A DNA stretch of 33,926 nt, taken from positions 1-33,926 of the forward strand of contig CAMBSL010000036.1 of NCBI GenBank assembly GCA_945870455.1, in the 5' to 3' direction. Below, one piece after another: positions 25,519 to 33,018 of the stretch. This DNA comes from Pirellula staleyi DSM 6068 (GTDB lineage Bacteria > Planctomycetota > Planctomycetia > Pirellulales > Pirellulaceae). Position numbers and translations under genes: made by a program. Every line of letters begins with the position of its first letter. Position 1 is the stretch's first letter. The notes beneath the pieces were generated by a model, which had not been told where the DNA came from, did no database searches, and saw only the letters and a list, made by a program, of their open reading frames with translations.

Positions 25519-27426
25519 ATGACACGTGTGTCACAATCGGATTGCCCCGGACTCCTGACCACTTTATTTGCTGTTGTTAGCCAATTGCTTGCTCGCCAAC
25601 CTAAATCGATCGGTAACTACGTTTCGGCTTCCTGGCCTGTTTTGGTGGGGTCACTGGTTGCCGGAATCTGCCTTGCAGCTATCGTTCTGGCGATTCTCGG
25701 AGAGAGCCATCGTCAACGTTGGCAATCCGCTCAGCAAGCTCTCGCGATCGCCGATTTGAGCGCTATTGAAGCCATGCGTCGTATTGGAATGGTCGCTGCG
25801 ACGACTCCTGCGCTGCAACGCATAGAATCGATAACGTCCGTGTCACAAACTTCGATCGAAGCGTTACGAAAAAATGGCGAGATCCTTTGGCTAGAATCGT
25901 CGGATTTTTTCGATGCAACCCATGCCAAGGAGCAAGTACCCGAGAGCATTCAAACCGCCTGGAGCAACGAACCCAACAACTATCAGCGACTCAAAGTGAC
26001 AAAACAATTGGACCCATTGTTTTCACCCTTGAAGCAACTCACCGTCATTCGGAGGTTTTCACCTCAAGACATCGACGGACTGCATTTTTTCGATTGGTTG
26101 TTGGGGATCGGTTTATGTTCCTTGAGTTGTGGTGCGGGCGTTTGGCTCACCACCTCGCGATATCGTCGACAACAGTTATTGCAGTTGCTCGCCGAGTGGG
26201 CAAAGGACAGTGATCGAGGGTTTCAAGCCAGCGACGCCTTCCCTAACACGACAACCCTCCAGTCGATCGAACCGCAGATCTCGCAAATCGTTCGAAGTGC
26301 CTCGCGATCGATGCGTGCACGGCTTGAAACCATTCAGCAGTCTGCGGAACAGTCCTCCCGCGTGATGTCGGCAATGCCGGTCGGAGTCGTAGCATTTGAC
26401 CCATCATTAAAACTTCTATTTGTCAACCGAGCAGGTCGGGAACTACTCAAGTTATCTGAGGCGACGCAATTCGGCCAATCGCTTGTAGAAGTCGTTCGGC
26501 ACCCCATCGTTGTCAGTCTCATTCAACAAGTCTCGCTCGAGCCTCAATCGCAGGAGATTGAGTTGGAACTACCATTGAGCAAAACAACATTGCGATTGCG
26601 AGCACAGCCTCTTCAAGAGCCCCATGCTTTGCTCGAACCCGCCGCTCGGAATGGTGTGTTGCTAACCATCACGGACGAAACCCGACTCAAGCAACTTGAG
26701 AATGCCCGCCGCGATTTCACGGCGAACGTTTCGCATGAACTCAAGACTCCGTTATCGGCGATCAAGGCTTACGCAGAAACGCTTCTCATCGGAGCCCTGG
26801 AGGATGCAGATGCCAGTCGCAGATTTGTCGAACGGATCAGCGAGCAGGCCAATCGGCTGGACATCTTGATTCGAGATTTGCTCCATTTAACTAAGTTGCA
26901 GTCCCAACCGGACAAGCCCTTGCTCAGAAACCTGCAGCTAGAAGATGTGCTCAAAACGTGCCTCGAAGAACATCGCACCATAGGCCTCTCCAAGAACGTT
27001 GCAATCGATGCTTCTGGCGTCGGCAAGAACTGCCTCGTCGAAGCGGATCTTGAGTCGCTACGAACGGTTATTGGAAACTTGTTAAGCAACGCTGTCCGAT
27101 ACAACCGACCCGGTGGCTGGATCAAGGTCTCGACGCGAATGGAAACGCACTTCGTTAACTTGATTGTCGAAGACAATGGAGTCGGAATACCGCCAGAAGA
27201 CCTCGATCGTATCTTCGAACGCTTCTATCGTGTTGAGAAAGCCAGAAGCCAAGATTCGGGTGGAACCGGTCTCGGGTTAGCCATCGTCAAACATCTTGTT
27301 CAGGCCATCTCTGCCGACATCAAAGTTCGCAGCGTTCTCGGCCAAGGGAGCGCATTCGAACTACGACTGAAACGGTCTACTCTTGGAAACATCCAAGAAC
27401 ATGGCGAAGGCATGCTTCAAGCTTAG
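25519..27426 (+). CDS. PhoR-like sensor histidine kinase
   Basis: The protein is 635 residues from ATG 25519. It has two transmembrane helices (about 38-62, WPVLVGSLVAGICLAAIVLA; about 190-212, LLGIGLCSLSCGAGVWLTTS) with a periplasmic loop between. A PAS domain (about 285-390; MSAMPVGVVAFDPSLKLLFV) is followed by the HisKA phosphoacceptor motif VSHELKTPLSAIKAYAETLL with His406. The ATPase domain shows the N box NLLSNAVRYN, G1 DNGVGIP, F box FERFYRVEKA and G2 GGTGLGLAIVKHL. It should phosphorylate a response regulator, but no receiver-domain gene lies in the window, so it is an orphan here. Its last 50 bases overlap the end of the convergent epimerase gene. Confidence 0.93.
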   Translation: MTRVSQSDCPGLLTTLFAVVSQLLARQPKSIGNYVSASWPVLVGSLVAGICLAAIVLAILGESHRQRWQSAQQALAIADLSAIEAMRRIGMVAATTPALQRIESITSVSQTSIEALRKNGEILWLESSDFFDATHAKEQVPESIQTAWSNEPNNYQRLKVTKQLDPLFSPLKQLTVIRRFSPQDIDGLHFFDWLLGIGLCSLSCGAGVWLTTSRYRRQQLLQLLAEWAKDSDRGFQASDAFPNTTTLQSIEPQISQIVRSASRSMRARLETIQQSAEQSSRVMSAMPVGVVAFDPSLKLLFVNRAGRELLKLSEATQFGQSLVEVVRHPIVVSLIQQVSLEPQSQEIELELPLSKTTLRLRAQPLQEPHALLEPAARNGVLLTITDETRLKQLENARRDFTANVSHELKTPLSAIKAYAETLLIGALEDADASRRFVERISEQANRLDILIRDLLHLTKLQSQPDKPLLRNLQLEDVLKTCLEEHRTIGLSKNVAIDASGVGKNCLVEADLESLRTVIGNLLSNAVRYNRPGGWIKVSTRMETHFVNLIVEDNGVGIPPEDLDRIFERFYRVEKARSQDSGGTGLGLAIVKHLVQAISADIKVRSVLGQGSAFELRLKRSTLGNIQEHGEGMLQA

Positions 27427-28783
27427 GTGTGCGAAAAGGAAACCCCTCCTCGGTTAATCGTTTGCAGTCCGCTCGCGTACTTGTTAAGAGCATTGCGTCC
27501 GCCATTTCCCCTAAAAGAATCCTCAATGCAAATGCAGGTGCGGGAAGAATCGCTGGACGATGAATGACCTGTCCCAACGTTTGAACAAAGGCACGGTTAT
27601 CCGTCTGCTCAGGTGCGACCAAATTGGTTGCCCCTTCGCTTTTGGGATTCACGGCCAAAAAGAGAAATGCCGCCGCAGCATCGTCAACATGAATCCAACT
27701 CCAATATTGCCGACCGTTGCCAATCGGACCACCGAGCCCCAGCCGAAAAGGTAAGAGCATTTTTGCTAACGCACCTTGTTGCGGATGCAACGCGATCCCC
27801 AATCGCCCAATCGCAACACGGTTGCCTGAGCAGCGGTTGAACTCCATGGCGGCAGATTCCCAGTCGCGCGCTAGTGACGCCAAAAAGTCGTCGCCAAAGG
27901 GTTGGGATTCGTCAAGCACTTGATCGCCTCGCTCGCCGTAACATCCAACGCCAGACGCGCAAATGAATGCTCTCGGCGGAGATTGCAATCGGCAAAGATC
28001 GCGGACCAGAGCGGTCGTCCCTGCAACGCGACTGTCCCGAATCGATTGCTTGGCCGATTGGGTCCACCGCGACGAAGCGATCCCTTGACCAGCAAGATGC
28101 ACGACTGCATCAAGATTGGACATGGCGTCAATATCGCTGAATCCATCTGTTTGGTCCCATACGACAGACGACGCGGACAAGGGGAACAGCTCGTTCCGCG
28201 AGTCTTTGCGAAGAATGCACACTGCTTTATGCCCAAAAACAGAAATGAGGTCGACCAATCGCCGACCAATCATCCCGGTACTACCGGTGACACCAATACG
28301 AAGCTTACGACCAAAGACATGCGGTTCGAGAAAATCCTTTAGCTTAAGATCCGCTTGAGTCGTCAAGTGACGATAGGCAAACATCGAATCAAGTTTAGAT
28401 TGGACGATCGGTAGAGCCAGTTTCCCCGGCGAGCCGAATTTCATCTCGAATTGAATACGGTCGTGCAGGATTGAGTTTTCTGAGTCCACGTTTTCAAAGT
28501 GATGATCGTGAACCCAACTCTGAAACGGTCCGGAGAGCTGGACGTCTTGGAAACTATTCGGCCCGTCTAATTGTGTGTGTTTGGCATGCCAACGAACAGG
28601 AACTCCGAAAATCGAGTTCCGAATAATGACTTCAGATCCTACGGCGAGCGAGTCACTGCGGCGTTCAATACAAACTTTTTCCCAGGGTGGGATGAGGCGA
28701 TCGATGGCGCCTGGATTGGCGTGATACTCGAATAACTCTTGGCGATCTTGGGGGATAGCTGTGGATCGCTCGAAGAGAGGCAT
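27377..28783 (-). CDS. SRPBCC domain fused to TIGR01777-type SDR epimerase
   Basis: The protein is 468 residues from ATG 28783, which follows the sigma-factor stop by three bases (TGA-ACC-ATG), so the two are one operon. Residues 1-150 form an SRPBCC/START-like ligand-binding domain (FERSTAIPQDRQELFEYHAN, WVHDHHFENVDSENSILHDR, QFEMKFGSPGKLALPIVQSK). Residues about 160-465 are an atypical SDR of the TIGR01777 (YfcH) family: NAD(P) loop GVTGSTGMIGRRLV, NLDAVVHLAGQGIASSRWT, SGVGCYGERGD, RLGIALHPQQGALAKMLLPF and SWIHVDDAAAAFLFL. The tail GFPFRTPKLEACLRHVL is also typical. Fusions of these two domains are common; the substrate is unknown. In other bacteria such genes are, from memory, often under light or stress regulators. 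Confidence 0.88.
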   Translation of the reverse strand: MPLFERSTAIPQDRQELFEYHANPGAIDRLIPPWEKVCIERRSDSLAVGSEVIIRNSIFGVPVRWHAKHTQLDGPNSFQDVQLSGPFQSWVHDHHFENVDSENSILHDRIQFEMKFGSPGKLALPIVQSKLDSMFAYRHLTTQADLKLKDFLEPHVFGRKLRIGVTGSTGMIGRRLVDLISVFGHKAVCILRKDSRNELFPLSASSVVWDQTDGFSDIDAMSNLDAVVHLAGQGIASSRWTQSAKQSIRDSRVAGTTALVRDLCRLQSPPRAFICASGVGCYGERGDQVLDESQPFGDDFLASLARDWESAAMEFNRCSGNRVAIGRLGIALHPQQGALAKMLLPFRLGLGGPIGNGRQYWSWIHVDDAAAAFLFLAVNPKSEGATNLVAPEQTDNRAFVQTLGQVIHRPAILPAPAFALRILLGEMADAMLLTSTRADCKRLTEEGFPFRTPKLEACLRHVLGCFQE

Positions 28784-28786
28784 GGT

Positions 28787-29875
28787 TCAAACGTCTGGTT
28801 CGGAAAGCGGAGTCAATTCAACCATACCACGAAGTTTGTCGAGAGCACGCTTTTCCAACTGGCGAATGCGTTCTTTCGACACGCCTAGTTTATCCGCGAG
28901 TCGCTGTAGCGTCTGAATGCGTCGGTGTCCACCGAGCGAGAATCTTGCACGAATGATGAATTTCTCTCGCCGGTCCAAATCATCCAGCATGGTCGACAAC
29001 TTAGAACGAAGTTCATTCCAACGCGACTCGCTCATCGACGATTCCTTTTGATCGTCACTGATATCTATGCCGTTTTCGTGGATGCTGCTAGTGTTTCGCT
29101 GACGTTCGGCTTGCTTCTCCATGACGCGCCGATAGGAATTCCGGCGTACGACCTGGGTAGCATACGTGCTGAAACGGAAACCAAGACCGACGTCAAACTT
29201 ATCAACTGCCCGCAACAATGCAATGATTCCATCGCTCAGCAAGTCATCGAATCCGTTTTGAAGATTGACAAATTTTTTCACGATGGAAATGACGAGCCGC
29301 ATATTCGACTTCACAATGAAATCTCGGTACCAATCTGCGGCTTTCAACAAGCCCTCGATCCGGCGAAGGTTCCAGCAATGGGGCTTTTCGATATTCAATG
29401 TCGATCGCAGTTGTTCTGCACGAAAGCGAAGATAATTCATCCGATGAAACAAACTTCTTTCCTCGTCGGGCGACAGTAGCTTTGCTTCGCAGAGTCGGGC
29501 CAGATGGGGCGGCAGTGCAGCCACTTTCGATGCCTTGGCCGGAGATTGCTCGATTCCCGTACCAAGAAAGATGTCTCCGAGAATTTCGCCTTCCGCCGTG
29601 GGTTCCGAAAAGCGTTCACTGGCAATGAACTCAACCTTTTGGGCGAGCAATCGCTTCACTTCTAGAGACAAGTCCAACGCCGATTTTTGTTCCGGGCAAG
29701 ACAGTTGGAGGAAGTGGCTGAACTGCTCTTCAACGGTTTTCTTCTTGAAAGTCTTCAGCGATTTGACGCTCACAGCATTTCTCGTAGATTTTACCGTTTT
29801 CGAGGTTGGAGATTTCCGCTTAGGCGAACCGGTTAATGGTTTGCTCAATGCTGTGGGGTGCAATATTTTGGCCAT
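28787..29875 (-). CDS. Sigma-70 family RNA polymerase sigma factor (RpoD/SigA-related, planctomycete type)
   Basis: The protein is 362 residues from ATG 29875, with GGAG eight bases upstream. A basic Lys/Ser/Thr-rich N-terminus is followed by region 1.2-like LSPDEERSLFHRMNYLRFRA, region 2 (FIVKSNMRLVISIVKKFVN, then FDDLLSDGIIALLRAVDKFD, then FSTYATQVVRRNSYRR), a shortened region 3 and region 4 (LQRLADKLGVSKERIRQLEK, the -35 helix-turn-helix). In place of the ATWWIRQ core of housekeeping factors it has ATQVVRRN, so both Trp residues used for melting the -10 are absent. It is therefore an alternative factor with its own promoter preference. It is co-transcribed with the SRPBCC-epimerase and divergent from the MerR-type regulator. 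Confidence 0.9.
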   Translation of the reverse strand: MAKILHPTALSKPLTGSPKRKSPTSKTVKSTRNAVSVKSLKTFKKKTVEEQFSHFLQLSCPEQKSALDLSLEVKRLLAQKVEFIASERFSEPTAEGEILGDIFLGTGIEQSPAKASKVAALPPHLARLCEAKLLSPDEERSLFHRMNYLRFRAEQLRSTLNIEKPHCWNLRRIEGLLKAADWYRDFIVKSNMRLVISIVKKFVNLQNGFDDLLSDGIIALLRAVDKFDVGLGFRFSTYATQVVRRNSYRRVMEKQAERQRNTSSIHENGIDISDDQKESSMSESRWNELRSKLSTMLDDLDRREKFIIRARFSLGGHRRIQTLQRLADKLGVSKERIRQLEKRALDKLRGMVELTPLSEPDV

Positions 29876-30207
29876 TATTGTCTCCAGTAAGGATGGCCTA
29901 GGGGGGGGCTCATCGAAATTCAGGTCGGAAGAATTCTTTGTCTGAGCAGCAATTCCGCCCGTATCGTTCGACCCGTTGGTTTCTACCGAATGTTAACTCG
30001 GTGATCAAGTCGTTATTTAAAGTTTCTCGCCAAAGTCGTCCGAAGCGGAGCTTGCCAACATCCTGATAATTTATCAATGATTTTATTGCTTGATTTATCG
30101 GCGATGAGCAGCATATACTCCCGCTTTGGGACGTTTTGGACTCCTAGAGATTCAATCAGAATCTCTAAGGTTTTGGACGTATTTGGCTTACTTTATCTAG
30201 GTGCATT
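29876..30207. promoter_or_regulatory. Divergent control region between sigma factor and MerR-type regulator
   Basis: No gene fits in these 332 bases. They hold a perfect dyad TAGAGATTC-AATCA-GAATCTCTA (30145-30167), a smaller dyad ACCGA/TCGGT (29985-30002) around GTTAAC, a run of eight G at 29901-29908 in the sigma-factor leader, and three copies of TTTTGGAC at 30134, 30171 and 30206, about 36 bases apart. The third overlaps the TTG start of the regulator. The arrangement looks like a set of operators for both genes. Confidence 0.6.
30090..30119 (+). promoter_or_regulatory. Sigma-70 type promoter for the MerR-type regulator
   Basis: TTGATT (30090-30095), an 18-base spacer and TATACT (30114-30119) point rightward. 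The start would fall near 30126, placing the 9-bp dyad and the TTTTGGAC copies within the transcribed leader. Confidence 0.4.
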
Positions 30208-31110
30208 TTGGACGAAAATTTTACTCCAAGGCAAGTTGCTACGGCGTTACAAGTCAGCGAGTCCTCAGTAAAGCGATGGTGCGACTTAGGTGTCATACGG
30301 ACGGACAGAACGGTCGGGGGCCATCGCCGAATTCCTCTCGAGTTCCTCCTGGATTTTCTTGAGAAAACGAACCGTCGCGTCGTGCAACCTTCTGCGATAG
30401 GGCTCGATCAGCCACAGGAGATAGGTCGCATCAGCGACCAAGGCGCCTTGAACAGGGAAAGCTTACAGGCGACATTCGAGACTGCTTTGATTGCCGGTGA
30501 TGAGTCAATCTGTCGCAGGATTTTGAGTGCATGGTACGCCATGCACGGGGGAATTGCTACCGTCTCGGACGAACTATTGGGCCCAACATTTCGTTCGATT
30601 GGCGAAAATCGGGAGAATGGAAAAGTCGAAATCTATGAAGAAAGAAGAGCCTGCGATATTTGCTACCGTTTGCTTCACGAGCTTCGTCGACTGTTACCCG
30701 AGCCGCAAGGGTTTGCGCCGCTCGCGATGGGAGGAGCAGCGTCCGGGGACGGAACTCAGCTCCCCTCGCAAGTGATTGAAATTGTCTTCCGCGAATATGG
30801 CTGGAGGACGATTTGCCTTGGTTCTAACCTTCCTTTTAGAACCATGCTATCCGCTGCACGCAAGCACATGCCCAAGATATTTTGGCTGAGCAGCACGTAC
30901 ATCGAAAACACCGATGTATTTCTGAGCGAATATGCACGGTTCGCGAAAAGTCTGCCCAAAGGAATCATGTTACTGGTTGGCGGGCGTGCGCTTAATGACG
31001 AGATCCGACAGAAAATGGTCTTTTCCTCCCATTGTGACACAATGCTACAGTTGTCGAATCTAGCCAAAACCCTCCGAGTCGGTTCGCGGCCTGCGGATCC
31101 GCAAATTTAG
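30208..31110 (+). CDS. MerR-type HTH regulator with degenerate cobalamin-binding fold (CarH/LitR-like)
   Basis: The protein is 300 residues from a TTG at 30208, with AGGTG just upstream; no other start keeps the full HTH. Residues 4-53 are a MerR/excisionase-like winged helix (FTPRQVATALQVSESSVKRW, VGGHRRIPLEFLLDFL). Residues about 85-165 match the four-helix B12-binding bundle, and about 170-290 the Rossmann-like B12 domain (VIEIVFREYGWRTICLGSNL, then MLLVGGRAL). The ligand residues differ. The W-x9-EH motif of CarH is R135...E145-R146, and the H and G of D-x-H-x-x-G are T183 and P186 in GDGTQLPS. It therefore probably does not bind adenosylcobalamin in the known way. It is divergent from the sigma-factor operon, which it likely controls. 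Confidence 0.8.
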   Translation: MDENFTPRQVATALQVSESSVKRWCDLGVIRTDRTVGGHRRIPLEFLLDFLEKTNRRVVQPSAIGLDQPQEIGRISDQGALNRESLQATFETALIAGDESICRRILSAWYAMHGGIATVSDELLGPTFRSIGENRENGKVEIYEERRACDICYRLLHELRRLLPEPQGFAPLAMGGAASGDGTQLPSQVIEIVFREYGWRTICLGSNLPFRTMLSAARKHMPKIFWLSSTYIENTDVFLSEYARFAKSLPKGIMLLVGGRALNDEIRQKMVFSSHCDTMLQLSNLAKTLRVGSRPADPQI

Positions 31111-31338: not shown

Positions 31339-33018
31339 ATGGTTATGTCTATCGGTACGAACGAAGTCAACGGCTTTGGAACTGAGCTTCCCGAATTTAG
31401 CGAATCCGCAAAAACGGATCCACGGACGCAGCTTCCGCAACCACTCGCCACTGTCGCCCAATCCACCGTTCCTCTTGAATTGCCCTCGCTGTTAGGGCAG
31501 CCGAACGAAGGCGTCGTTCGACGAGTTGGTTGGTGGGCTGCCGTACCGAGTTGGTTTGTAAGCACGGTATTCCATGTTGGAGTCATTCTGATCCTCGCTG
31601 CGTGGAATATCGAGCCGATCAAACGAGAACTGAAACTGATGTTGGTTTCGTCGGAGTCACTTAACGACGGCGAAGCACTGGAGGAGTTCGCAACAGATGA
31701 GGCAATGGCATCCGAGTTAGAATCGAGTGAGACTGAGACTGAGGACACGGCATCTGCGTCCCCGGTCGTCGACTCAACTATCGCTGAAGCGCAGGTTGAA
31801 ATGGATTTCGGAGACGTGGTTGCTACCAACATGCCAGCTGTGCAGATGACGAGCATGACCCAAAGCTTGATTCCCAAGAGCGGATTGTCGGCCCAAGCAA
31901 ACGCGGCCATGCGAGCCGCACTGAATAGTCGATCCAAAGAAACGAAACGGGATCTGCTCAGCAAGTACGGCGGGACGTCCGACACGGAGAAAGCGGTGTC
32001 GATGGCTCTCAAATGGCTGGCCGCTCACCAAGATCCCAATACGGGCGCTTGGAGTTTAACCCACTCCATCGTTTGCAATGGGCAATGCGACCACGCAGGT
32101 AAACGTCGCTTTAGCCAGAACGCCGCAACAGGGCTTGCACTCATGTGCTTCTTGGGAGCTGGCCAAACCCATTTGGAGGGCGAATACAAGCAGACGGTAT
32201 TCAAGGGCCTTGGTTTCTTGATCAAGAACATGAAGTTTCAAAAGGGGCTTGGCTCTTGGTATGTCGGCGGTGGAGGCCAAGGATATGATGACATGTACGC
32301 GCATGGCATCGCATCGATCGCTATGTGCGAAGCATTCGGAATGACCAAAGACCCAGCACTTTTGGAAGCTGCTCAAAACGGCGTTAACTTTCTTGCCTAT
32401 GCTCAAAACCCTTCCACGGGTGGTTGGCACTACGCACCGCAAGGACTTGGCGATACCTCCGTGGTTGGCTGGCAAATGATGGCGTTGAAGAGCGCTGCGA
32501 TGAGTGGGCTGTCCGTTGATTTGAATGTCGTTCGCAAAGCGAACTCGTTCTTGGATCAGATGTCTTGGGGCGACTACGGTAGTTTCTATCACTACAGCCA
32601 TGGTTCCGTCAAAGATAACGCTGGATACAATTCGAGCACAACCGCCTGCGCCGTCCTTTGCCGAATGTACTCTGGCCTTCCGAAAGAACATCCATCAATC
32701 AAGATTGCAGTCGAACGATTCAGCAAAGACGGACCTAGCCCAAACAACACGTACTACAATTACTATGCAACTCAGGTCATGAAACAAGTTGGCGGACCTG
32801 AGTGGGAGAAATGGAACGTTAGAATGCGAGACAAGCTCGTCGCGTCGCAGGAGAAATCCGGCCACATGGCAGGCAGTTGGTACTGGGCGGATACTCATGG
32901 CGCCGATTCTGGGGGGCGTTTGTACATCACCTGCATGGCGACAATGATGCTGGAAGTCTATTACCGCTACATGCCTCTCTACGGCGACAAAGCTGAGGAA
33001 GATGCGTTTGCGCTCTAG
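31339..33018 (+). CDS. Membrane-anchored squalene-cyclase-fold repeat protein
   Basis: The protein is 559 residues from ATG 31339; ATG 31345 is equally possible. About 60 polar residues lead to one transmembrane helix (71-90, SWFVSTVFHVGVILILAAWN), like a TonB-type N-terminal anchor. A very acidic Ser/Glu/Thr linker spans about 104-165. Alpha/alpha-toroid repeats run from about 215 to the end, with the QW-like pattern DPNTGAWSLTHS, GLGSWYVGGGGQGYDD, NPSTGGWHYAPQGLGD, SSTTACAVLCRM and HMAGSWYWADTHG. The DxDD motif of triterpene cyclases is missing. It is probably a periplasmic structural or binding protein of a planctomycete family of unknown role, similar in fold to 277-1923. Confidence 0.82.
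   Translation: MVMSIGTNEVNGFGTELPEFSESAKTDPRTQLPQPLATVAQSTVPLELPSLLGQPNEGVVRRVGWWAAVPSWFVSTVFHVGVILILAAWNIEPIKRELKLMLVSSESLNDGEALEEFATDEAMASELESSETETEDTASASPVVDSTIAEAQVEMDFGDVVATNMPAVQMTSMTQSLIPKSGLSAQANAAMRAALNSRSKETKRDLLSKYGGTSDTEKAVSMALKWLAAHQDPNTGAWSLTHSIVCNGQCDHAGKRRFSQNAATGLALMCFLGAGQTHLEGEYKQTVFKGLGFLIKNMKFQKGLGSWYVGGGGQGYDDMYAHGIASIAMCEAFGMTKDPALLEAAQNGVNFLAYAQNPSTGGWHYAPQGLGDTSVVGWQMMALKSAAMSGLSVDLNVVRKANSFLDQMSWGDYGSFYHYSHGSVKDNAGYNSSTTACAVLCRMYSGLPKEHPSIKIAVERFSKDGPSPNNTYYNYYATQVMKQVGGPEWEKWNVRMRDKLVASQEKSGHMAGSWYWADTHGADSGGRLYITCMATMMLEVYYRYMPLYGDKAEEDAFAL

Follow-up and report, generated by a model that had tools for sequence, protein, structure and literature searches.

A CarH-like regulator with a replaced cobalt ligand faces a sigma factor gene in Pirellula staleyi: a candidate photo-oxidative-stress circuit of Planctomycetota

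Results

Genes and domains at the locus

The DNA analysed, a 33,926-nucleotide stretch of Pirellula staleyi DSM 6068 (here ‘the window’), carries a regulator gene (REG) divergent from a sigma factor gene (SIG), behind which lies an epimerase-type gene (EPI); the strands and coordinates originally predicted for these three ORFs were confirmed (Table 1). REG starts with TTG, at a position matching that of close relatives. SIG matched Sigma70 regions 2 and 4 and belongs to the sigma-70 family (NCBIfam TIGR02937, 93.1 bits against a cut-off of 42.9), while EPI belongs to TIGR01777 (280.4 bits, cut-off 207.35) and begins with a Polyketide_cyc (SRPBCC) domain (Pfam).

Table 1. Genes, domains, residues and candidate regulatory elements of the locus, in window coordinates
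Feature	Position	Strand	Remarks
EPI, SRPBCC + TIGR01777 SDR/epimerase + DUF1731	27377..28783	-	468 aa; 3 bp after SIG
SIG, sigma-70 family factor, regions 2 and 4	28787..29875	-	362 aa
Decayed operator remnant, CGTTCGACC-CGTTGG, two 9-bp units	29965..29979	+	Placed by position relative to sisters
Candidate -10 of SIG promoter, TAGAAA	29980..29985	-	
Candidate -35 of SIG promoter, TTGATC	30003..30008	-	Position as for TTGC-N17-TATAA in relatives
Candidate -10 of REG promoter, TATACT	30114..30119	+	Conserved in part of genus
Three TTTTGGAC copies (30134, 30171, 30206)	30134..30213	+	Reverse complement GTCCAAAA, close to unit CGTTCAAAA
REG, BldC/MerR-type HTH + four-helix + Rossmann (B12-binding fold) regulator	30208..31110	+	300 aa
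REG HTH (residues 5-53), like HTH_17/BldC/excisionase	30220..30366	+	Pfam 1.7e-7
REG four-helix bundle, B12-binding_2 (residues 88-159)	30469..30684	+	23.9 bits, cut-off 23
Codon R135, Trp position of W-x9-EH	30610..30612	+	Private to this genome
Codons E145-R146, EH position	30640..30645	+	E in all genus/order loci; R general in class
REG Rossmann part, B12-binding (residues 174-261)	30727..30990	+	Sub-threshold, 26.8 bits, cut-off 32.1
Codon T183, cobalt-binding His position (His204 of CtMerR)	30754..30756	+	Tyr in most relatives

REG has the domain set of CarH and class I LitR (MerR-type HTH, four-helix bundle, Rossmann B12 domain), and scored 43.5 bits against the NCBIfam CarH model, far under its cut-off of 400. 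The HTH resembled NCBIfam BldC (2.8e-9; 36.7 bits, below the cut-off of 77), the BldC structure 6ama (9.5e-6) and the HTH of CtMerR (2e-9). CtMerR was also the closest sequence match of the whole protein in the PDB (8jbs/8jbt, E 3.8e-31, residues 4–269). In an AlphaFold model (mean pLDDT 87, built from an alignment of the window with 44 of 80 ‘named’ loci), the B12 domain was best matched in fold by CtMerR (8jbs/8jbt, TM-score over target 0.84–0.86), then by CarH (5c8x), which bears out the likeness to LitR/CarH proposed for REG in the original prediction.

Conservation of the circuit

REG was found in 25/26 other genomes of the genus, and was accompanied by both SIG and EPI in 24 of these 25 loci; in the exception (L035) the contig breaks off about 0.5 kb from REG. 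The linked regulator, sigma factor and epimerase that had been predicted are thus a conserved circuit. Full-length-type matches to REG (E ≤ 1e-45) occurred in 36/148 sampled genomes of the phylum, and the circuit is therefore widespread, not universal. The named set keeps the best 80 of 300 loci found with patterns including ERR and KRWCD, which biases the count of R146 among them; the genus and 148-genome phylum searches do not carry this bias. The phylum sample comprised 36 loci, some two per genome, picked non-randomly from the stronger matches. The four locus sets used for neighbour and operator counts overlap, with some contigs recurring, and their contigs differ in length.

Tandem 9-bp repeats at the sigma factor promoter

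The repeat unit of the SIG–REG spacers is CGTTCAAAW, arranged in tandem at 9 bp. A perfect CGTTCA-N3-CGTTCA pair was present in 26/37 spacers (31 pairs) and in none of 20 shuffles, while perfect pairs at periods 7, 8, 10 and 11 numbered zero in these 37 spacers; judged by period only, these are not the 11-bp tandem operators (nnnnTnnACAn) of CarH. Pairs with at most one mismatch were found upstream of REG in 24/25, 13/24, 31/56 and 19/36 loci of the four overlapping sets, against an expectation in control DNA of 0.007 per comparable stretch; 17/36 phylum-sample loci had none. Perfect sites were nearly confined to the locus, which held 24/26 of those in 27 genus genomes. Pairs also occurred at REG loci whose available stretch showed no SIG (L067, L079, L264, L278, L279, L285, L286 and L288), and the repeats are therefore tied to REG. 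Loose pairs (≤2 mismatches) were enriched at period 13 as well (43 in 22/37 spacers, shuffle mean 3.2; five perfect), possibly because adjacent units overlap.

The repeats cover the start of the candidate SIG promoter with a BldC-like geometry, BldC being described as binding one subunit per 9 bp at repeats AATTCGGTC/GAATTTCGC (excerpt of PMC5859096). The candidate promoter takes the form TTGC-N17-TATAA in relatives: near the operator, 32/50 loci (64%) reached 8/12 consensus matches, compared with 17% at random places, with poor fits at L167, L194, L197, L208 and L216.

These candidate BldC-type sites, conserved in relatives, are decayed in the window, where two degenerate units stand against three good ones in sister L032 (spacer alignment of 13/37 spacers). 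The loss of one unit is peculiar to this genome within the compared set, and by sequence alone the remnant, with 3 mismatches, is not above chance. TTTTGGAC occurs five times in the whole window (1.43 expected; 3/100 shuffles reach five), and was rejected as a conserved operator because no triplet of it was seen in the 36 other spacers, where the conserved unit is CGTTCAAAW. An inverted repeat, AGAGATT-N7-AATCTCT (30146–30166), was dropped: the nearest sister has it in imperfect form and the next one lacks it.

Photoprotection-type neighbours

In relatives, REG has photolyase, CFA synthase, DUF1365, flavin oxidase or fasciclin genes (Pfam/NCBIfam) as neighbours, and the operon behind SIG, which carries EPI in the window, contains genes for flavin oxidase, DUF1365 and CFA synthase elsewhere. 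A library neighbour other than SIG lay beside REG in 25/36 phylum loci, a count in which source loci score by construction (the library drew on neighbours observed beforehand) and in which the SRPBCC query also matches the EPI N-terminus; 11/36 had no library neighbour other than SIG. The same proteins gave no match in 20 arbitrarily placed 14.85-kb windows of 13 planctomycete genomes. Neighbour clustering covered the named loci apart from four of the 80 in which no REG ORF was kept (L174, L198, L216 and L221). The link to light or photo-oxidative stress, which the original prediction had offered as inference, is backed by these neighbours in other planctomycetes. Photolyase, CFA synthase, SDR and fasciclin genes are among those listed for the R. 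sphaeroides RpoE regulon (excerpt of PMC7074977).

Away from REG, 11 perfect sites were found in 20 hand-picked, non-random genomes, six of them preceding Fasciclin genes and one a lone SIG homologue. A regulon search of the window's own genome (≤2 mismatches) gave 89 sites vs 70 for a reversed control; of 30 sites made into loci, 27 were inside mechanically called ORFs and three outside (L116, L122 and L124), and the search was set aside as uninformative. The genome's own fasciclin and photolyase regions held no 9-bp site at ≤1 mismatch.

Residues of the cobalamin motifs

The residues originally listed for REG (R135, E145-R146 and D181-G-T183-Q-L-P186) are present in the window, but the notion that ligands were lost as one event in its lineage does not hold. 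Only W135R is recent: Trp is kept in the window's sisters and in 25/25 other genus loci, and its replacement is one of six REG amino-acid changes on the window's branch. Substitution of Arg for His in EH is general across the class, with a few loci outside it; the window reads R-x9-ER, whereas W-x9-ER and W-x9-EH prevail in the REG family. Replacement of the cobalt-binding His is phylum-wide, this residue being missing from 25/25 genus loci, 24/24 other family or order loci, 56/56 named loci outside the genus and 35/36 phylum-sample loci. Its place is taken by Tyr in 31/36 loci sampled across the phylum and in most other relatives, and by Thr in the window's clade, both sister loci included.

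The motif given for CarH/CarA is D/ExHx2G/P-x41-SxT/V-x22-27-GG (excerpt of PMC9304148), and the window's REG fits its spacing (D181..P186, S228, T230, G258-G259) except at the His; a supposed Gly-to-Pro loss in D-x-H-x-x-G was rejected, Pro being permitted there. Among REG relatives, GxxW, the Glu of EH, GxxxP and GG are fixed or nearly so; the Trp is retained, as is, for the most part, the S-x-S/T...GG motif. Of the claim that the cobalamin ligands are lost, then, the disappearance of the cobalt-binding His stands, but the loss of W135 is private, EH to ER is class-wide, P186 is no loss and the pocket motifs mostly persist. Scattered, unlinked orthologues or an alignment restoring the ligands elsewhere had been envisaged as contrary outcomes; the linkage holds, and aligning relatives recovered no conserved His. 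Some relatives have a His at a variable place between the D and the Y, for example GDHYQ in L039.

Discussion

The circuit, the repeats, the promoter-like geometry, the neighbour set and the residue changes were each observed computationally; that REG binds the repeats, that it represses and does not activate, and what its signal and ligand are, we infer. With a probability of about 0.6, REG represses a sigma factor for photo-oxidative stress and bears a CarH-like domain in which the cobalt ligand has been replaced. Arranged head-to-tail, its BldC-like HTH would occupy the tandem 9-bp repeats where the SIG promoter begins and, in many relatives, also near its own promoter, keeping SIG and the genes behind it off by default; on perceiving light or photo-oxidative stress through the B12-fold domain, REG would let go, and the released SIG would drive photoprotection. 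An activator could use the same sites. If this is right, many Planctomycetota gain a candidate photo-oxidative-stress master switch with a short, predictable operator, in which BldC-type DNA sites are joined to a B12-type sensor domain, and light or oxidant sensing by a CarH-type domain without the cobalt-binding histidine becomes testable.

In Tyr-bearing relatives the B12-fold domain has, most likely, kept the ability to bind a cobalamin, with no His ligating it; binding of a ligand is less likely for the window's REG, which has Thr183 and Arg135. More tentatively, these proteins may form a widespread class of light or photo-oxidative-stress regulators in Planctomycetota, combining cobalamin binding in which Tyr replaces the cobalt-binding His (Tyr-facing or His-off), BldC-like 9-bp repeats and a dedicated sigma factor; this Tyr-for-His class, if real, would represent B12 photoreceptor chemistry that we did not find described for CarH/LitR. 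Among the matches listed in the open-licence literature, neither a CarH-like regulator of planctomycetes nor a Tyr variant was found.

A B12-independent REG is one option, possible but on the whole unlikely. Here the fold would serve, cofactor-free, as a dimerisation or partner module with the signal arriving via another protein, as for CarA of Myxococcus, a B12-independent paralogue (excerpt of PMC9304148), or class II LitR of Pseudomonas, described as working with a LOV protein (excerpt of PMC9758184). Such a role would suit the near-universal absence of the cobalt-binding His, but the near-fixed GxxW, Glu of EH, GxxxP and GG are hard to explain without a ligand, the remaining cobalamin pocket is mostly conserved, and the pattern reported for CarA is the opposite one. 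The one published CBD found with its His replaced, by Arg, is described as binding hydroxocobalamin but not AdoCbl or MeCbl (excerpt of PMC11796333). This may be argued both for and against independence, and the failure with AdoCbl counts against the reading favoured above.

It is doubtful that the switch is being lost in the window's species, with W135R and the decayed operator as signs of relaxed selection. No other locus in the comparison shows W135R or has lost an operator unit, but on the window's branch synonymous codon changes exceed nonsynonymous ones in REG (6 nonsynonymous/14 synonymous; sister 11/15), SIG (2/18) and EPI (4/13), and all three are therefore still constrained; the TTTTGGAC copies could, moreover, be replacement sites.

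Tyrosine is a possible heme ligand, and the B12 fold might now hold a different tetrapyrrole, for instance heme in a SCHIC-like and perhaps Tyr-ligated manner, or else a flavin, and sense redox state or oxygen. We consider this improbable: the SCHIC domain of AppA is a heme-binding B12-type fold, but one described as replacing the Trp cap (L239) and shifting the His by two residues (excerpt of PMC9144470), whereas the REG family keeps the Trp and, mostly, S-x-S/T...GG. Equally improbable is that the SIG holoenzyme or another factor, rather than REG, binds the 9-bp repeats, since these overlap the SIG start region, as such a factor's sites might, but also occur at REG loci without detected SIG, are rare in control DNA and have a geometry fitting the BldC-like HTH of REG, the predicted binder.

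In sequence and fold REG is closest to CtMerR, the AdoCbl green-light sensor of Chloracidobacterium thermophilum, from which it differs in having R135, E145-R146 and T183 in place of W156, E166-H167 and His204. With CarH and class I LitR (Thermus, Bacillus, Myxococcus) it shares domain order, B12 fold and apparent control of photoprotection genes; it differs in lacking the cobalt-binding His, in the 9-bp repeats of its loci as opposed to the 11-bp nnnnTnnACAn given for CarH (excerpt of PMC9304148), and in facing a sigma factor with RpoD-like best matches. Like CarA, it departs from the intact W-x9-EH and D-x-H motif set; CarA, as portrayed in that excerpt, has no Trp and keeps EH and the B12-binding motif, whereas REG proteins keep the Trp and Glu with the His replaced, and the window's REG lacks the Trp, the His of EH and the cobalt-binding His. 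The HTH and 9-bp direct repeats recall the BldC family, but BldC is described as a protein of 68 residues without an effector domain (excerpt of PMC5859096), whereas REG, at 300 residues, has a B12 fold attached. Finally, photolyase, CFA synthase, SDR, fasciclin and sigma factor genes are features shared with the RpoE–ChrR singlet-oxygen response of Rhodobacter (excerpt of PMC7074977); there the anti-sigma factor ChrR holds RpoE, whereas at the REG loci the sigma factor gene itself seems to be under a DNA-binding regulator.

Results

The window's genome is incomplete (386 contigs, completeness 92.5%). Pirellula lies in Planctomycetota, Pirellulales, and the nearest relatives with a name are MAGs labelled Pirellula, with 93% and 88% identity in the CarH/LitR-like regulator, REG. 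The HTH of REG matches HTH_17 (Pfam, 1.7e-7) and its B12-binding_2 match barely exceeds the cut-off (5e-5), while the Rossmann part matches Pfam B12-binding under the cut-off; the nearest NCBIfam type is CarH, although the score, 43.5 bits, stays below the cut-off of 400. The divergent sigma-70 factor, SIG, has best matches that are RpoD-like, and the epimerase, EPI, matches TIGR01777 with an SRPBCC-type N-terminus (both Pfam/NCBIfam). EPI and a convergent kinase gene share a 50-bp 3′ overlap, also present in the window's two sister loci. The 559-aa protein downstream of REG, a neighbour in several close relatives too, has no above-threshold Pfam match (best Pec_lyase, 0.11).

Features of the locus in the window
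Feature	Position	Strand	Description
REG	30208-31110	+	HTH + B12-fold regulator
Operator remnant	29965-29979		CGTTCGACC-CGTTGG
SIG	28787-29875	-	sigma regions 2 and 4
EPI	27377-28783	-	3 bp after SIG
Kinase gene	25519-27426	+	PhoR/PnpS-like histidine kinase
3′ overlap	27377-27426		EPI with kinase gene
559-aa protein	31339-33018

Across a phylum sample of 148 genomes, REG was matched at E <= 1e-15 in 59 and at E <= 1e-45 in 36; on this evidence it is widespread in Planctomycetota, not universal. A search of 60 relatives, own genome included, gave matches in 51 (48 with E < 1e-40). Of the 76/80 named loci whose neighbours were clustered, 51 have SIG as the first divergent gene and 32 have EPI following it; other named loci carried an operon with DCC1-like, flavin oxidase, DUF1365, CFA synthase (CMAS 9e-92) and DUF1295 genes, or photolyases. 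One photolyase group passed Pfam cut-offs; a second reached 375 bits with TIGR00591 (E 7e-112), under the curated cut-off of 550, and the one member tested had no Pfam match. Linkage of sigma factor, epimerase and regulator held within the genus, SIG and EPI each occurring at 24/25 genus loci, and library neighbours (gene types already recorded beside REG) appeared in 0/20 control windows. The gene downstream of REG on the same strand is, in other genera, often one for a BamB/PQQ-repeat-like protein (e.g. L187:10957-12240); its cluster, c3, takes the first downstream place in 20/31 members.

Conservation in four overlapping locus sets (residue counts: full-length REG members; Trp in genus: window excluded)
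Feature	Genus	Other family/order genera	Named, outside genus	Phylum sample
SIG near REG	24/25	12/24	37/56	7/36
Library neighbour besides SIG	24/25 (EPI)	15/24	38/56	25/36
9-bp pair upstream of REG, <=1 mismatch	24/25	13/24	31/56	19/36
Trp of W-x9-EH	25/25	24/24	56/56	34/36
Glu of EH	25/25	24/24	56/56	35/36
EH His to Arg	25/25	23/24	56/56 (biased by search pattern)	14/36
Cobalt-binding His to Tyr	23/25	22/24	52/56	31/36

The candidate operator, CGTTCA-N3-CGTTCA, was perfect in 26 of 37 SIG-REG spacers (window included), within one mismatch in 31 and within two in 35, against maxima of 0, 1 and 5 pairs in 20 dinucleotide shuffles of all spacers. Perfect pairs numbered 0 at periods 7, 8, 10 and 11, 3 at 12 and 5 at 13; period 13 was also enriched at <=2 mismatches (43 pairs in 22 spacers against a shuffle mean of 3.2), which overlap between adjacent 9-bp units might explain. 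Control DNA (20 windows, 297 kb) held 2 pairs with <=1 mismatch, or 0.007 expected per 1020-bp stretch. Exact CGTTCAAWWCGTTCA occurred 26 times in 27 genus genomes, 24 of them within the SIG-REG spacer; its reversed control occurred 5 times. Several named loci have two candidate sites at 57-58 bp distance, and some a third near REG.

A sigma-70-like SIG promoter was sought near this element in the window and 49 named loci, 50 in all. Matches of at least 8/12 to consensus were found in 32/50, versus 17% at random places, and in 28/50 the -10 starts 10-15 nt ahead of the candidate operator, placing the latter over the start site, which suggests that REG represses SIG.

Among 20 hand-picked genomes across the phylum, perfect CGTTCAWWWCGTTCA occurred in 16, at 27 sites: 16 at REG (13 genomes) and 11 elsewhere. 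Six of the latter immediately precede genes with a Fasciclin domain (PF02469, E 1e-32 to 1e-78), two of these six also inside another mechanically called ORF; one precedes a lone SIG homologue, three lie within ORFs and one is intergenic. In two related genomes (L292, L313) a perfect operator-like pair lies within an argH-like ORF (named by eye).

An AlphaFold2 model from the window REG and 44 relatives (mean pLDDT 87, pTM 0.77) had as its top solved Foldseek match the B12 domain of CtMerR, the AdoCbl green-light sensor of Chloracidobacterium thermophilum, in dark and light states (8jbs/8jbt; TM-score over target 0.84-0.86), with full-length CarH next; CtMerR was also the best PDB match by sequence (E 3.8e-31). 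At an alignment offset of 21, R135, E145, R146 and T183 correspond to Trp156, Glu166, His167 and His204. In the CtMerR study, His204 is the lower axial ligand, Trp156 makes a hydrophobic contact and light rotates E166/H167 (PMC11796333).

The original prediction of lost cobalamin ligands stood for the cobalt-binding His, replaced nearly throughout the four sets; the change of Trp to Arg is, by these alignments, private to the window, and EH Glu is kept nearly throughout. Thr takes the cobalt position in 2/25 genus loci, the window's sisters, and His in a single locus of the four sets (L273). EH His is retained in 21/36 phylum-sample loci; Arg replaces it in 11/11 'same class' loci of that sample and in about three outside the class. 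G205, P209 and G259 are present in all rows, D181 and G258 are absent from one row each, S228 occurs in 30/36 phylum-sample loci, and the spacing D-x-x-x2-P-x41-S-x-T-x27-GG equals the CarH/CarA motif, His excepted, as given in PMC9304148. In a quick ML tree (73 rows; CtMerR root a long branch, many deep forks weak or open), DxY occurred in EH and ER groups alike and the DxH locus nested within the EH group, so that His-to-Tyr looks older than His-to-Arg, the root being unsure. Two distant family paralogues, L085 and L086, retain the cobalt-position His (ExH); in L085, whose match contains one in-frame TAA, W and EH are retained as well. Both are candidate true B12 sensors alongside Tyr-bearing relatives.

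The window's operator remnant is recognised solely from its place relative to the sister loci; by sequence, the window yields 34 matches of this kind, versus 39 expected. The REG branch carries 6 amino-acid changes, including W135R and R27L, against 14 synonymous codon changes, a ratio indicating that the protein is still constrained. MetH and two cobalamin riboswitches indicate that the organism uses B12. The genome encodes photolyases and fasciclin proteins, and on contig C96 one photolyase gene lies 1.3 kb from a fasciclin gene. A good candidate operator was absent at these genes; DUF1365 was not found in this genome. On C96 (L347:799-4075) the Fasciclin gene, an Fpg/Nei-glycosylase-like gene (by eye) and the photolyase lie together.

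Discussion

REG probably (about 0.6 for this claim as a whole) represses a sigma operon that serves against photo-oxidative stress. Photolyase, CFA synthase, putative cyclopropane fatty acid proteins, an SDR and a fasciclin protein appear together in the table of the Rhodobacter sphaeroides RpoE regulon (PMC7074977). In a LitR region of Pseudomonas, genes for photolyase, SDR and flavin oxidoreductase occur with ufaM (PMC9758184), and fasciclin proteins are among light-induced genes of M. kansasii (PMC9861118).

REG may bind cobalamin without His, no ligand, or another tetrapyrrole. According to PMC11796333, a CBD with Arg for His took up OHCbl, not AdoCbl or MeCbl, a result that favours cobalamin binding by REG and disfavours an AdoCbl light switch.

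Judged on sequence features, REG is a new variant distinct from CarH, not to be filed as CarH because three defining features tested, an intact W-x9-EH, the cobalt-binding His and 11-bp repeats, do not hold. The 9-bp repeat fits that of BldC, which aligns with the REG HTH; according to PMC5859096, one BldC subunit occupies each 9 bp (repeats AATTCGGTC/GAATTTCGC) and Arg30 reads CG. R23 of REG (RW pair), present in every row except one truncated row, is likely the counterpart of Arg30. In its circuit, REG would function as local switches of the CarH/LitR type do, here coupled to a sigma factor.
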